Shown here: in pieces, positions 9,112 through 32,576 of the stretch
Numbering within the stretch: position 1 is the first letter of the stretch
Layout: every line of letters begins with the position of its first letter
Assembly (NCBI GenBank): GCA_019686135.1
Contig: JADGHL010000052.1
Location: 1 to 32,576 of the forward strand
Source of the DNA: Myxococcaceae bacterium
Lineage (GTDB): Bacteria; Myxococcota; Myxococcia; Myxococcales; Myxococcaceae
Reading direction: 5' to 3'
DNA length: 32,576 bases
Program-made: the position numbers and the translations under genes
Notes under the pieces: generated by a model
The model's database searches: none
What the model saw: the letters and a program-made list of their open reading frames with translations, nothing else
What the model was told of the DNA's origin: nothing

Positions 9112-10362
9112 TCAGGCCCGGCGGATCGCGCTGCGCGCCCGCTTGTGCGCGTAGAGTTCGGCGTCCGCGCGCCGAAGGAGCTGCTCCGCGGTCTCGCTCC
9201 GGCTGGTCTCCCCGAACGCGGCCACGCCGAAGGAGGCGCGTACGCAGAAGGTGACGTTGCCCTCGACGGTGATGGGCGACCGATCGAGGTGTTCTTCGAT
9301 CCGCCGCAGCAGGCGATCGGCGCCGTCGCGGTCGCAGCCGGGGACGACCAGCGCGAACTCGTCGCCGCCCACGCGCGCGGCGCAGTCGCTCCCGCGGATG
9401 CTGGCGGCGAGCGCGCGCGCCAGCGTCCGCAGGCTCTCGTCGCCGGCGTGGTGCCCCCAGGTGTCGTTGATCCGCTTGAGCCCGTCCTGATCGGCCAGCA
9501 CCACGACCAGCCCGGACTGATCTGCCGCCGCGGCGCGCAGCGCGTGCTCGAGGAAGGCGCGGAAGCCGCGGCGGTTGGCGAGCCCGGTGAGATCGTCCCG
9601 TCCGCCGAGGAGCCGCTCGCGCCTCAACTGCTGCGAGTGCGCGAGCGCGTTGCGCACCCGGGCCACCAGCTCGCTGGGGGCGACCGGCTTGGCGATGACG
9701 TCGAAGGCGCCGGACTCGAACGCCGCCACCCGCGTCTCGGTGTCCGCGCGGCCGCTCACCACCACGAGCGGAGTGCGCAGCCCCTCATCCAGCGCGCGGG
9801 TGAGCTCCAACAGCGCCATCCCCCCGCCGTGCGGCATGTAGAGATCGGCCACGACGACGTCCGCGGGTTCCTCGCGGAGCACCTTGGCCGCCTCGCGCGC
9901 GTCCCGGCATGCGCGCACGTCGAACCAGGGGCTGAGGATCCGATCCAGCAGCGCCACCGAATCCGGATCGTCATCCACCACCAGCACGCGGAAGCGGCCC
10001 GAAATCTGCGTGGTGCCCGACAGCGGCATCAGGTCGTACCGCGGGGGCAGCGGGACGGTGTGGTCCTCCAGCAGGTTGGCGAGGTTGCGTGCACGCGCCT
10101 CCAGCTCGCGCGCGGCGGACGAGAGGCGCAGCCAGGTGGCGCGCCCACGCACCGTCGCCTCGAGGTCCTCCATCGCGCGCCGCACCAGGTCCAGCGCCGC
10201 CTCGACGCTCGTCGGCGGCGGGGTGAGCGCCCCCGGTACGCGGTCTCCCGCGGCGGCCGAAATCTCGTCCGTACCCACAGACATCCCCCCGGCAGCGTTG
10301 TGTCCGGCTGCCGCGTCGATCATGCCCGATGCATCTGGCCCTGCAATCCCGCTGATGCCCAT
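9112..10362 (-). CDS. Response regulator receiver-GGDEF diguanylate cyclase
   Basis: The 416-residue protein has an unassigned N-terminal region (1-120), a receiver domain (about 124-240) and a GGDEF domain (about 253-412). Receiver hallmarks are the acidic D130-D132, phospho-acceptor D173, S203 and K225. The cyclase motif GGDEF (332-336) is intact, and RGSD at 323-326 lies five residues before it, the position of the c-di-GMP inhibitory I-site. It should therefore make c-di-GMP from two GTP upon phosphorylation, with product feedback. No membrane segment is present. The start is uncertain: ATG at 10362, 10323 or 10284 are in frame and none has a good ribosome binding site. It is divergent from the pilin-like lipoprotein and has no adjacent kinase. 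Confidence 0.92.
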   Translation of the reverse strand: MGISGIAGPDASGMIDAAAGHNAAGGMSVGTDEISAAAGDRVPGALTPPPTSVEAALDLVRRAMEDLEATVRGRATWLRLSSAARELEARARNLANLLEDHTVPLPPRYDLMPLSGTTQISGRFRVLVVDDDPDSVALLDRILSPWFDVRACRDAREAAKVLREEPADVVVADLYMPHGGGMALLELTRALDEGLRTPLVVVSGRADTETRVAAFESGAFDVIAKPVAPSELVARVRNALAHSQQLRRERLLGGRDDLTGLANRRGFRAFLEHALRAAAADQSGLVVVLADQDGLKRINDTWGHHAGDESLRTLARALAASIRGSDCAARVGGDEFALVVPGCDRDGADRLLRRIEEHLDRSPITVEGNVTFCVRASFGVAAFGETSRSETAEQLLRRADAELYAHKRARSAIRRA

Positions 10363-27985: not shown

Positions 27986-28813
27986 TCAAGCGCGGAGCCC
28001 GCGGTACAAAAGGTCGAGCGCCACCGCTCGCCGGCGCGCGGCGCGCTGCTCCTTGTCCGGGTCGCCGCGCAGGTGCAGCACGTAGGTGGCGACGTGCATC
28101 TCGAACATGATGGACGCCACCATCTCGACGTCCATGTCCGCGCGCAGGCGCTTCTGCTGGATGCCGACCTTGAGCGCGTCCTCGATCACCGCGGAGAACT
28201 TCATCCGAAGCGCGTAGAACTTCGCGTCCCACTCCGGCGCGACCTCGGAGAGCAGGCCCAGCATGAGCTGCATCAAGAGCGGGTGGTGGCCGATGTATTC
28301 GAACGCGCGCTCGGCGATCTGCTGGAGCAGCTGCATCGCCTCCACTCTCGGATGGACCCAGCGGCGCGCTTCGGCAAGGAAAGTCTCCACCTCTCGCGAG
28401 ACCGCTTCGTAGAGCAGCGCCTCCTTCGAAGGCGCCACCGCCAGCACCACCGCCTTCGACACCCCGGCGAGCGCCGCCACCTCGTCCAGCGACACCTTGC
28501 GGAATCCGCCGCGCGCGAAGAGGGTGATGGCGGTGGAGATGACCTGATCGCGTTCGACGGAGGAGACGCTGACAGTCCGTCCGGGCGGGTGGGCCGCGTC
28601 CCACAGCGGCTTGTTCGGGGCGACGGGCGTCTCCAGCACGCCCGGTACCACCACCTTCGGCCGCTTCACCTCGCCGAAGGCGTCGTCCGGATCGTCCTTC
28701 TTCCGCAGCTCCGCGGCCATGCGGGCGCGGGCACGTTTGAGGATCTCCTTCGGGTCTCCGCTCATCCCAAGGCGCTCGAATGGCGGGCTCGGATTGTAGC
28801 CCGGAGCGCTCAC
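27986..28813 (-). CDS. TetR/AcrR-family transcriptional regulator
   Basis: The product has 275 residues if it starts at GTG 28813, which has AGGAG eight bases upstream; ATG 28765 (259 residues) is an alternative. The TetR DNA-binding domain is not at the very N-terminus but at about 85-140, with FARGGFRKVSLDEVAALAGV and SKAVVLAVAPSKEALLYEAV. It is preceded by ~85 residues of Lys/Pro-rich, probably flexible sequence, unusual for the family. The C-terminal ligand/dimer domain follows to the end. It converges on the GH15-membrane protein pair. Ligand and targets are unknown; the divergent DNA upstream holds only a disrupted gene. Confidence 0.88.
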   Translation of the reverse strand: MSAPGYNPSPPFERLGMSGDPKEILKRARARMAAELRKKDDPDDAFGEVKRPKVVVPGVLETPVAPNKPLWDAAHPPGRTVSVSSVERDQVISTAITLFARGGFRKVSLDEVAALAGVSKAVVLAVAPSKEALLYEAVSREVETFLAEARRWVHPRVEAMQLLQQIAERAFEYIGHHPLLMQLMLGLLSEVAPEWDAKFYALRMKFSAVIEDALKVGIQQKRLRADMDVEMVASIMFEMHVATYVLHLRGDPDKEQRAARRRAVALDLLYRGLRA

Positions 28814-28819
28814 ATCCTA

Positions 28820-29244
28820 TGCTCCTTCGCGCCATGTGGACGAAGCAGGCGATACACTACGGGTTTGATTTCCCCGAAGAGGTGTTTGCCTTCCACTTCG
28901 TCCGATCGAGCGCCGAGCAGCTGGCCCCGCTCGAGGGCGCCGTGGCGTTCCGCGCCGAGTGCGATCGTTCGAGTTGAGCGCGGAGACGACATCACCGTCG
29001 TGAGGCACAGCCAGGGCGCCAACTTCGTGCCGCTCCTGATGGTGGACGAGCCGGGTGTCGTCGCGGGCGTGCAGCTCGAGGGAGATCGCTCCTGCTCGAT
29101 CAGCTCGTCCCCGGACAGCTCCGGGATCTCGCCGACTTCCTCGATGGACCGGGCGCGCAGTCTGCCCAGGACGTGGTTGCGCTCCGGGCGGAGGCCGCCA
29201 GGCTGGAGATAGACCTCCGGCAGATCCGCGCCGGCACCTTCCCC
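28820..29244 (+). pseudogene. Disrupted gene read in three frames, unknown function
   Basis: From ATG 28820 the first frame gives GFDFPEEVFAFHFVRSS and on to AFRAEC, then a stop. A +1 step near 28962 gives IVRVERGDDITVVRHSQGAN and FVPLLMVDEPGVVAGVQLEG; a further one-base change near 29090 gives LLDQLVPGQLRDLADFLDG and ALRAEAARLEIDLRQIRAGT. Each piece shows the strong third-position G/C of local genes and they join smoothly into about 140 residues, so this looks like one gene damaged by two indels, or two sequencing errors. No stop closes the last frame nearby, and it runs into a convergent broken gene. I do not recognise the protein; its end is helical. Confidence 0.4.
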
Positions 29245-29258
29245 CGGGCCGCTCCGTC

Positions 29259-29511
29259 TCACGGGCCGGGCGCCCTCGGCGTGCGCAGCGGCGGGCGTAC
29301 GCGCCCGGTCTCCACGGGCAGCGGCTCCGGAAGCGGCGGCGACTCCGCGAGCTTCTCCACCGCGCCGCGCAGAACGCCGAGCTGTCGCGGCACGCGCTCG
29401 ATGAGGGCGCACGCCACCGGGTCGTCCTCGGTGGGGCAGACCGCGATGCGGGGCGGCGGCGGGACGTCGTGGCCCTCCTCCAGCGCGCCGGCGAGCGCGG
29501 ATGTCCAACAA
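29259..29511 (-). pseudogene. Small gene downstream of the Clp-RF2 fusion, disrupted near its 5' end
   Basis: After the Clp-RF2 stop, a TTG at 29511 or 29508 begins LDIRA, and a +1 step near 29496 enters a frame that gives ALAGALEEGHDVPPPPRIAV, CPTEDDPVACALIERVPRQL and GVLRGAVEKLAESPPLPE up to a TGA at 29259. The frame has the local third-position G/C bias and a plausible soluble, ~85-residue product, but no start codon of its own before its conserved-looking part. It could be a decayed gene, a sequencing error in a real gene, or a chance open frame. Function unknown. Confidence 0.35.
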
Positions 29512-29535
29512 CAGCCCGCGCTGCGCGTCGGTCTC

Positions 29536-32355
29536 CTACCGTGAACCCGCCGCTCGCGCAGATCTCGACACCCACGCGGCGATGAAGACCTCGAGCTCGC
29601 CGCGCAGCACGTCCTTCACGCGCGGCGTGAAGGCCCCAGTGCGTGGATCTTCCACGTGTGGTGCGCGTCCGACGAAGTAGCGGCGCACTTCCCCGGTGGG
29701 GACCTGGGCCGGATCCAAAAGGGCGCTTGCCGCCGCTCGCAGCTCCGCGAGGTTGCCGGTACCCTCCAGCACCACCGCGCGGCCGCTCTGTTCGTCCCGC
29801 GCGCTCACCTCCGCGCCCACGCGTTCGAGGAACCTCCCCGGCCGGCGCCGGAACTCCTTCGCGCTCACGAGCTCCGCGTCGGGCTCGAGCGCCGGCCAGC
29901 GGCGAGGTCGCACGTACGCGCCCACCCGCGCGTCCTCGTCGATCCGCCGGTGCAGCCCCGCCTCGCCGGCGAGGAACCCGAGCACTCCGGGACCGGACAG
30001 GCGCAGCAGCACGCGGGTCGGGTCCCGGCCTTCGGCGATCGCGCTCTTCTCGTACCCGCGGCGCTCGGCCCAGCCGAGGTACATGTGCAGCAGCTCCTTC
30101 ACCCACGCCTGCGCCCCCGGGGTCTCCGCCGCTGCCTCCACCTCCAGCAGCACGTCATCGATCCCCGTGGACGCGCCCGCGGCGGTGCGCGCCTCCAATA
30201 GCTGCACCTCCCGCGCGACGTCCTCCACCGTCTTCGCCACCGCCACCAGGTGCTGTTCGGTCTTCGCCTCCCGCACCAGCCGCCGCGCCGAGCCCGCCGC
30301 GCGCACGACGCGGTCCATGTCCCCGAGCTGTGCGTCCAGAGCACGGTAGCCGCGGAGGATGCCCGCCGCGCGCTGCGGGTCGTCCCAGAAGTCGGGCGCC
30401 TGCGACTGGTCGAGGAGCGCGCGCCGCCGCGCCTCCAGCTCGGCGCGTCCCGCCGCCACGGCGATGGCGTTGGCGCGCTCCCAGAGCGCTTCCACCTCGT
30501 GCTGCAACGAACGCTTGTCCAGCCGGCGCCGCACCGTCGCCGCGCCGCGGGTGGGGAGGACGAGCTGCGCGGTCGCCTCTTTGGGCGGAGCGATGGGCTC
30601 GGCACGCGCGACGATGTCGCCGGACGGCTTCGCCTCCACGCGCACCGGCGTGCCCGGCTGGAGCGGGCGCTTGACGATCTCCACCGCCAGCGCCGCGGTC
30701 AGCGTCTTTTCGATCTCCCGCTTGAGGAACCGCGCGCCGAAGAGCGGCGAGTACCCGCGCTCCACCAGGAGGTCGACGACCTCCGGCGCCACCTCCACGT
30801 CCAGCCCGCGCGAGCGGATTCCCTCGCGTTCGATCACCCGCCCCACCTCGCGCTGGGCGATCTTCCGGATCTCGATGCGGGTGAGCGGGTGGAAGTGGCA
30901 GATGGCGTCGAAGCGGTTGAGGAACTCGGGGCGGAACGCGTCGGCGATCCGCCGGTCCACCTCGTTCAACAGCTCCGCCTGCGTGCGCGATCCGGAGAAG
31001 CCGATCGGTGGATCGCGGTACACCTCCGCGCCCACGTTGGACGTGGCGACGATCAGCGTGTTCGCGCACTGCACGGTCTCGCCGGCGGCGTTGATGAACT
31101 GCCCTTCGTCGAAGAGCTGGAGGAAGCGGTCGTGCACCCCGCGGTGTGCCTTCTCGAACTCGTCGAGGAGGAGGACCGCGAACACCTTCCCGTCCAACAG
31201 CCGGGTCAGCTCGCCGCGCTTCTGCTGCCAGGAGGCGCCCCACGGCGCGCCGAAGGGGATGGCCTCCGCGCCCTCGTGCGCGTAGTCCGCCATGTTCAGG
31301 CGCACCAGCCGGTCCGCGCTGCCAAACAGGTACTCCGCGAGCAGCTTGGCGAGGTGGGTCTTCCCCACGCCGGTGGGCCCTGCGAACAGGAACACGCCCA
31401 GAGGTCGCCGCGGATCGTTGAGGCCGGCCTTGAGCAGCGCCACCGAGCGCAGCACCGCGTTCACCGCCTCGTGCTGCCCGAGGATCCGGTCGGCGAAGAA
31501 GCGCGCGGTCTGGTCGAGATCCAGCGGCATCGCGTCGTCCACCACGAAGCGCGGCAGCCGCGTGGCCGAACAGAAGCGGGTGAGGACGTCCCGCGCCGTC
31601 ACCCGTTCGCGCCCCGCCGCCGCGACCTCCGCCACCGTCTCGCGCAGAAGCTCGATCGCCTTGCGCGGCATCCTTTGCGCCAGGAGGAACTTCGCCGCCA
31701 GCCGGTGGGCCATGTCGCAGGCCTCCGGGTCGATCGGCAGCGCGTGCTCGATCTCCAGATCCTCGGCGACGCGGGAGAGAATCCACCGGACCTGTTCCGG
31801 GTCCGGTTCGGAGATGACCAGCAGGTGTGCGCGCTCGGCGAGCGCCTCGTTGGAGCGGAGCAGCTGGTGCCCGTGGCGGAGATCGCTCTCGAGGATGAAG
31901 CGGACGCCGCCCGAACGGAGCGCGCGCACCATCACCGGCATCAGGGGGCCGCCCTCCGCCACGGCGAAGTCGGGCACGTAGACGATCGCCCCCGGCTGAC
32001 GGGAGAGGTGGTCGATGAGCTCGTCCGTCGCCTCCACCGCGCGGCGGCCTTCGCGCGCGAGCAGCGTGGCCAGCGACACCTCCACCACCCGCGCGCCCTG
32101 CAGCGCCGGCTCGACCCTGCCCTCGACGATGCGCCGCGCCGCCTCCTGCACCAGCGCGGTCTTCCCCACGCCGGGGTCGCCCGCGAGCAGCGGGTGCTTG
32201 TCGCCGCGGCCGATCAGCGCGAGCAGCTCGGTGACGGCCTCCTCCACGCCGAACGCCTGGGGCAGCTTCCCTGCACGCGCGAACGCGGTGAGATCGCGGT
32301 CGACCAGCCGGGCGACGTCGGCGTCGGTGGCGGTCACGGTCTTCTTCCGGGCCAT
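29536..32355 (-). CDS. ClpA/ClpC-like AAA+ ATPase fused to an RF2-like domain lacking GGQ
   Basis: The 939-residue protein starts at ATG 32355. AAA domain 1 (about 35-270) has Walker A GDPGVGKT (59-66), but its Walker B is VYVPDF, without the catalytic Glu. AAA domain 2 (about 285-570) is complete: GPTGVGKT (326-333), LLLDEFEKAH (D398, E399), sensor N440, Arg finger R481, sensor-2 GAR. IGF (451-453) lies where ClpA and ClpX carry the ClpP-binding loop; ClpB lacks it. There is no Clp N-domain and no long M-domain. Residues ~615-931 follow release factor 2: DFWDDP, LLHMYLGWAERRGYE, LSGPGVLGFLAGEAGLHRR and the RF2 tail RRYFVGRAPHVEDPRTGAFT. The GGQ and anticodon-like SPF motifs are missing. Function unknown; ribosome-linked unfolding is inferred. 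Confidence 0.88.
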   Translation of the reverse strand: MARKKTVTATDADVARLVDRDLTAFARAGKLPQAFGVEEAVTELLALIGRGDKHPLLAGDPGVGKTALVQEAARRIVEGRVEPALQGARVVEVSLATLLAREGRRAVEATDELIDHLSRQPGAIVYVPDFAVAEGGPLMPVMVRALRSGGVRFILESDLRHGHQLLRSNEALAERAHLLVISEPDPEQVRWILSRVAEDLEIEHALPIDPEACDMAHRLAAKFLLAQRMPRKAIELLRETVAEVAAAGRERVTARDVLTRFCSATRLPRFVVDDAMPLDLDQTARFFADRILGQHEAVNAVLRSVALLKAGLNDPRRPLGVFLFAGPTGVGKTHLAKLLAEYLFGSADRLVRLNMADYAHEGAEAIPFGAPWGASWQQKRGELTRLLDGKVFAVLLLDEFEKAHRGVHDRFLQLFDEGQFINAAGETVQCANTLIVATSNVGAEVYRDPPIGFSGSRTQAELLNEVDRRIADAFRPEFLNRFDAICHFHPLTRIEIRKIAQREVGRVIEREGIRSRGLDVEVAPEVVDLLVERGYSPLFGARFLKREIEKTLTAALAVEIVKRPLQPGTPVRVEAKPSGDIVARAEPIAPPKEATAQLVLPTRGAATVRRRLDKRSLQHEVEALWERANAIAVAAGRAELEARRRALLDQSQAPDFWDDPQRAAGILRGYRALDAQLGDMDRVVRAAGSARRLVREAKTEQHLVAVAKTVEDVAREVQLLEARTAAGASTGIDDVLLEVEAAAETPGAQAWVKELLHMYLGWAERRGYEKSAIAEGRDPTRVLLRLSGPGVLGFLAGEAGLHRRIDEDARVGAYVRPRRWPALEPDAELVSAKEFRRRPGRFLERVGAEVSARDEQSGRAVVLEGTGNLAELRAAASALLDPAQVPTGEVRRYFVGRAPHVEDPRTGAFTPRVKDVLRGELEVFIAAWVSRSARAAGSR

Positions 32356-32445: not shown

Positions 32446-32576
32446 ATGCAAACGACCACGAGGCTTATCGGCATCGCCAGCATGGTGGCGGTGTTCACCC
32501 TGGGCTGCCCGGCACCGAAGGAGCTCCCGCCGGAACCGGATGCGGGCTACTCTCCGGTCGGTGGTGGGGGCGGGGG
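32446..32576 (+). CDS. Lipoprotein N-terminus (cut by the right edge)
   Basis: From ATG 32446, after GAGGGACGG, the 43 visible codons give a signal peptide with a short basic start, a hydrophobic core (IGIASMVAVF) and the lipobox TLGC, then a Pro/Glu-rich and Gly-rich linker. The frame is open to the window edge. It is divergent from the Clp-RF2 gene with a 90-base gap. The mature domain is not visible, so nothing more can be said of function. Confidence 0.65.
   Translation, partial: MQTTTRLIGIASMVAVFTLGCPAPKELPPEPDAGYSPVGGGGG

Follow-up and report, generated by a model that had tools for sequence, protein, structure and literature searches.

The stretch of DNA analysed here (the window) comprises 32,576 nucleotides of a contig from a Myxococcaceae bacterium. 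Its minus strand carries, from 32355 down to 29536, a single continuous open frame of 939 codons which runs from two AAA+ modules of the Clp type into a body derived from release factor 2 (RF2). The original prediction for this locus had proposed such an unfoldase continuing in one frame into an RF2-like region, and the open reading frame, with its AAA+ and RF2 domain matches, confirms it. The N-terminus is a conserved, K/R-rich start of the form M(A/V), common to the homologs. The gene and its elements are located as follows.

29536..32355, minus strand: whole fusion gene (939 aa), two AAA+ modules and an RF2-derived body
31546..32304, minus strand: D1 AAA+ module, residues ~18-270, without Clp_N ahead of it (NCBIfam ClpA model and motif alignment)
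32158..32181, minus strand: D1 Walker A GDPGVGKT, residues 59-66, intact
31969..31980, minus strand: D1 Walker B position YVPD, residues 126-129, with P-D at the canonical D-E pair
30901..31407, minus strand: D2 AAA+ module (AAA_2, PF07724), residues 317-485 (Pfam, 1.1e-37)
31357..31380, minus strand: D2 Walker A GPTGVGKT, residues 326-333, invariant in 15 of 15 aligned fusions
31159..31173, minus strand: D2 Walker B LLLDE, residues 395-399, invariant in 15 of 15 aligned fusions
30997..31005, minus strand: IGF tripeptide, residues 451-453, at the position of the ClpA/ClpC ClpP-docking loop
30913..30936, minus strand: FRPEFLNR, residues 474-481, D2 arginine-finger segment
30637..30885, minus strand: ClpB_D2-small domain, residues 491-573 (Pfam, 3.3e-14)
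29947..30435, minus strand: PCRF domain (PF03462), equivalent to RF2 domain 1 and the start of domain 2, residues 641-803 (4.7e-13)
30103..30132, minus strand: position of the alpha5 N-terminal tip, residues 742-751, RF2 GAGGTEAQDW replaced (RF2 alignment)
29926..29952, minus strand: position of the stop-codon (SPF) loop, residues 802-810, six residues deleted (RF2 alignment)
29815..29850, minus strand: GGQ position RRRPGRFLERVG, residues 836-847, one Gly retained and the Gln lost (RF2 alignment)
29557..29691, minus strand: RF2 C-terminal signature RRYF...EDPRTG...VLRGELEVFIAAW, residues 889-933

A TetR-like regulator is found at 27986-28813 on the minus strand of the window, and the interval between it and the fusion gene (28810-29535) shows no clear coding signal. 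On the plus strand, a divergent frame (MQTTTRLIGIASMVAVFTLGCPAP...) at ~32446-32576 resembles a lipoprotein signal peptide and is truncated by the contig end.

The NCBIfam ClpA model spans residues 18-574, across both AAA+ modules, with a score of 308 bits against a cut-off of 993, far below the NCBIfam cut-offs. The C-terminal part is matched by the NCBIfam prfB model (TIGR00020) at 3.3e-20 and by RF2 chains of the PDB at 3.6e-15, with a second, weaker segment aligning the C-terminal tail to the tail of RF2. The tail alone (residues 804-939) obtained 15.6 bits against an RF2 profile, and those of four relatives obtained 17.8-19.3 bits, whereas none of 50 shuffles exceeded 0.2 bits. The motifs cited in the original prediction (DFWDDP, LLHMYLGWAERRGY, RRRPGRFLERVG and RRYFVGRAPHVEDPRTG) were all located where it had placed them. 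A structural model of residues 593-939, built with 42 RF2s added to the alignment, reached a pLDDT of 87.6 and a pTM of 0.82; its best Foldseek matches were RF2 chains (3.1e-17), and VIA-align superimposed it onto E. coli RF2 (1gqe) with a Z of 25.1 at 3.6 A over 316 residues. The predicted fold therefore matches RF2, and the mismatch named at the outset as counter-evidence did not occur; however, aligning with RF2s biases the model in their favour, so that it agrees with the RF2 ancestry while the sequence evidence carries the claim. An earlier model of this region, for which two fusion sequences served as input, reached a poor pLDDT of 53 and was set aside.

The loss of both signature motifs of RF2, also part of that prediction, is borne out by an alignment with 42 true RF2s, in which the SPF loop is missing, PGRF stands at the GGQ position and a cut has taken out the long helix joining domains 3 and 4. 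The GGQ catalytic motif and the SPF recognition loop are absent from all fusions aligned, and the GGTE of the alpha5 tip is replaced in all of them; in RF1, the alpha5 tip and the recognition loop read the first base of the stop codon (PMC3418547). Largely retained across the fusions are FW, W..L..MY..WA, E.G.H, RxY and the D.R.G tail. The 79 other relatives examined on the genome contigs are, without exception, ordinary RF2s with the GGQ context. The fusion shares with RF2 (prfB) the PCRF domain, the overall fold and the C-terminal tail, but differs from it in the loss of GGQ, SPF and alpha5 tip in every member, in being joined to an ATPase and in forming a separate clade.

Of the 96 genomes of the myxobacterial family of the window, 83 carry the joined gene, as does one genome of another family; it was not found at an E-value of 1e-100 in the remaining Myxococcota genomes searched. 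Fifteen aligned fusions are 58-64% identical to the window protein and contain ATPase and RF2-core positions that never vary among them, and the RF part diverges faster (~51-58% identity to the window protein) than the ATPase part (~70%). Distant members, at ~35% identity and with the match continuing into the RF2 part, were detected in Chloroflexota (11 of 301 genomes, two further matches being ordinary Clps without an RF part) and in Pseudomonadota (two matches in 398 genomes of the phylum of an alphaproteobacterial MAG, one more member in a class sample and further members in two order samples, with 9 of 200 genomes in one of the two), phylum-wide rates not to be read from any of these samples. 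Among 297 genomes of a further phylum no member was found at 1e-80, a threshold that may miss distant members. The PCRF domain scores above the Pfam cut-off in the distant fusions L160, L165, L182 and L185 (e.g. 4.9e-16, 2.5e-18 and 5.3e-15), just above it in L156 and L157, and below it in L166 (20.9 versus 24 bits).

Both parts stay joined in the homologs, and the separate, unrelated genes that had been anticipated as possible counter-evidence were not seen; nor were the RF2 part and the ATPase seen as separate neighbouring genes, the one RF part standing alone (G083) being frameshifted. An assembly or frameshift artefact as the source of the joint was rejected, as dozens of independent genomes show the same one-frame joint. 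The solitary RF2-like part in G083 (L132, 8233-9272) has its frameshift near the start, lies between xerC and hslV/hslU, and may be either a remnant or a free-standing form. In G147 (L137, genus g7), a one-base frame shift at ~9132-9137, at the ATPase/RF2 joint, may reflect a sequencing error or a real split.

Domain 3 has been reduced to three different grades. It is shrunken, with GGQ replaced, in myxobacteria and in Chloroflexota members L182, L183 and L187, all three of which still end in a WG-x-VVR-x-Y tail resembling that of RF2; L160 and L165 retain a remnant with GGR or EGR; and in a Pseudomonadota branch the domain is completely deleted, with the RF2 core and tail retained. Most members of this branch (L156, L157 and L166-L174) carry an N-terminal transmembrane segment. 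Because these membrane-anchored members deleted domain 3 and retained core and tail, the part that has been kept is the non-catalytic one. In L156 and its relatives, the ~250 residues before D1 consist of the transmembrane segment and an unnamed, helical-looking region.

In a D2 tree with ten control Clps, a branch with support of 98/99 separates all fusion D2 modules from the Clps, in a tree where long branches meet and controls are few; in an RF-part tree with fifteen RF2s, all fusion RF parts are likewise set apart from the RF2s (support 99/98). Both trees are compatible with a single ancient fusion event, without proving it, and from the recurrence in three bacterial phyla we infer that the fusion is an old, maintained architecture.

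The ATPase part combines intact and broken motifs. In D2, the Walker A, Walker B and arginine finger are intact in nearly all fusions (L187 is devoid of the finger segment), and a D2 so equipped is predicted to provide ATP-driven force. D1 retains its Walker A across the fusions, whereas its Walker-B Asp-Glu pair, intact in control Clps, is intact in no fusion examined: it reads P-D in the window and R-D, S-D, E-D, P-E, E-Q, D-R or P-H in other fusions. The tyrosine of the D2 pore-loop GYVG, present in most control Clps, is lost in every fusion examined (GASW in the window), and the myxobacterial fusions possess an invariant Trp two positions upstream of it. The pore aromatic of D1 is retained in the Pseudomonadota and Chloroflexota fusions and lost in the myxobacterial ones. 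These pore changes make threading of substrates by D2 uncertain. Consequently, while the original view of a fusion between a Clp-type ATPase and a GGQ-less, SPF-less RF2 body stands, and the fusion is conserved, its suggestion of pulling on the nascent chain is weakened, where threading would do the pulling, by the universal loss of the D2 pore tyrosine and the broken D1 Walker B among the fusions examined, and further so in the myxobacterial group, where the D1 pore aromatic is lost as well.

In common with ClpA/ClpC, the fusion has two AAA+ modules followed by a D2-small domain, the D2 Walker A and B, the arginine finger and the docking-loop tripeptide; unlike them, it has no Clp_N domain (just 58 residues precede the D1 Walker A), a broken D1 Walker-B pair, no D2 pore tyrosine and a 340-residue RF2-derived C-terminus, and it forms a separate clade. 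In known Clps the C-terminus lies on the side of the ring that meets ClpP. By analogy, the RF2 bodies would surround the ClpP-facing face, and six bodies of the size of RF2 on that side might hinder ClpP. The ClpP-docking motif is (L/I/V)-G-(F/L) (PMC8745299); the tripeptide is IGF in the window and L/I/V/M-GF in all myxobacterial fusions examined. Since it reads PGF, AGF, WGF or GGF in some non-myxobacterial fusions, ClpP use does not seem to be universal in the family; to judge from this loop, feeding of ClpP is plausible for the myxobacterial fusions and doubtful for members in which it is altered. The genome of the window also encodes a normal RF2 with GGQ and SPF, as well as ClpA, ClpB, a ClpC-like protein and ClpP.

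Around the fusion loci examined, we found no conserved neighbourhood pointing to translation or proteolysis, and no neighbour gene shared outside myxobacteria. Genes named from their sequences as RNase J-, YajQ- and RimO-like lie directly downstream of the fusion in one genus and, in a second genus, at a distance of a few genes (loci L126, L133 and L134), and not elsewhere; an operon logic based on them was rejected, as the arrangement is limited to these two genera. An origin from mobile elements was likewise dismissed: the RF part of L160 gave 22 plasmid matches, those named among the 15 listed being ordinary prfB, and none of the phage records reaches a coverage of 80% on the RF part of the window protein. 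A role as a defence system was also discarded, the PADLOC matches being AAA modules that match other AAA proteins and nothing more.

We consider it slightly better than an even bet (probability of about 0.55) that the fusion belongs to an ancient Clp/Hsp100 branch in which a captured and stripped RF2 acts as a built-in recruiting domain. The RF2 body itself is probably a non-catalytic recruiting (adaptor) domain rather than a release factor: as core and tail are retained and the known functional loops removed across three phyla, it does not appear to serve decoding or hydrolysis. In the cell, RF2 contacts the ribosome, RF3 and the stalk, which are for this reason the first candidate partners; that the ribosome is the target of recruitment is possible, if somewhat short of even odds. 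Docking of the fusion on ribosomes is plausible, and since GGQ, SPF and the alpha5 tip are all lost, only a codon-independent contact with the A site or the stalk would remain. With greatest confidence, we picture a ring-shaped ATPase in which D2 would be the main motor, while D1 would bind ATP and hydrolyse it poorly. With less confidence, the RF2 body would bring this ring to a usual partner of RF2; the ribosome, contacted at its A site or stalk base independently of the codon, is the likeliest one, and a termination or rescue factor the alternative. The least confident steps are that D2 would then remodel or remove the partner and that members with an intact hydrophobic-GF loop would pass it on to ClpP. 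A fuller scheme is unlikely as a whole: an Hsp100 ring bearing several non-catalytic RF bodies would dock on ribosomes regardless of codon, so that a single polypeptide would both recognise the A site and use ATP to remove the nascent chain or a stuck factor, with ClpP in some members.

Alternatively, the RF2 fold might now serve structure, oligomerisation or substrate binding, its link to translation gone. The loss of every functional loop, the faster evolution of the RF part relative to the ATPase part and the existence of a membrane-anchored branch make this a serious contender, albeit one we hold at clearly less than even odds, for RF2-typical core and tail residues are conserved over three phyla and plain scaffolding would not obviously need them. 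Carried to its full form, the original idea would have the pseudo-RF2 enter or cap the A site of stalled ribosomes, while the ATPase supplies ClpP with a nascent chain, or a bound factor, that it has extracted. RF2 ancestry and the retained core fold speak for such quality control, as do the ClpP gene in the window genome and the hydrophobic-GF loop in all myxobacterial fusions examined and several others; it is nevertheless rather improbable in view of the lost alpha5 tip, SPF, GGQ and pore tyrosines, the lack of a rescue-gene neighbourhood and the whole deletion of domain 3 in one branch. Retention of RF2 domain 1 and of intact D2 ATPase motifs would also suit a non-proteolytic regulator of termination, which would act as a decoy for the partners of RF2 (RF3, stalk proteins) and be freed by ATP hydrolysis, but conservation of domain 1 is poor beyond the myxobacteria and we regard such a decoy as quite improbable. 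As for an ordinary ClpA/ClpC that gained its C-terminal extension by chance, or a fusion in decay, the frameshifted solitary RF part of G083 and the one-base shift at the joint in G147 are what would be expected of it; the single open frame in dozens of genomes, the monophyly of both halves and the invariant motifs leave it hardly any credibility.

A search of open-licence papers retrieved no earlier description of the Clp-RF2 architecture, in agreement with the original prediction, which named no characterised protein of such a design, although an unseen description is possible. A review of release-factor evolution nowhere mentions Clp (PMC6514570), and a study of M. xanthus Clps, which counted eight clpA/B/C copies, leaves release factors unmentioned (PMC11423568). 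ClpI of Actinomycetota, a non-canonical Clp class in which some members have the ClpP loop and others lack it (PMC10149685), resembles the fusion family in being non-canonical and variable in this loop, but no RF2-derived part has been described for it. In eukaryotic ribosome quality control, the release-factor-like Vms1 works with the AAA+ Cdc48 on ribosomes (PMC6514570). This pairing of an RF-like protein with an AAA+ ATPase is a functional analogy and no homology: Vms1 and Cdc48 are separate proteins, Vms1 belongs to an unrelated RF superfamily and is itself a hydrolase. Through the fusion, bacteria have physically tied protein remodelling to a factor of translation termination, a tie that is ancient and has been kept repeatedly. 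Were the RF2 body to target ribosomes, the protein would match, in one bacterial chain, the eukaryotic RF-like/AAA+ quality-control pair; otherwise, it would be a striking conversion of a release factor into an adaptor domain. As the fusion is a single gene in myxobacteria amenable to laboratory work, either reading is directly testable.
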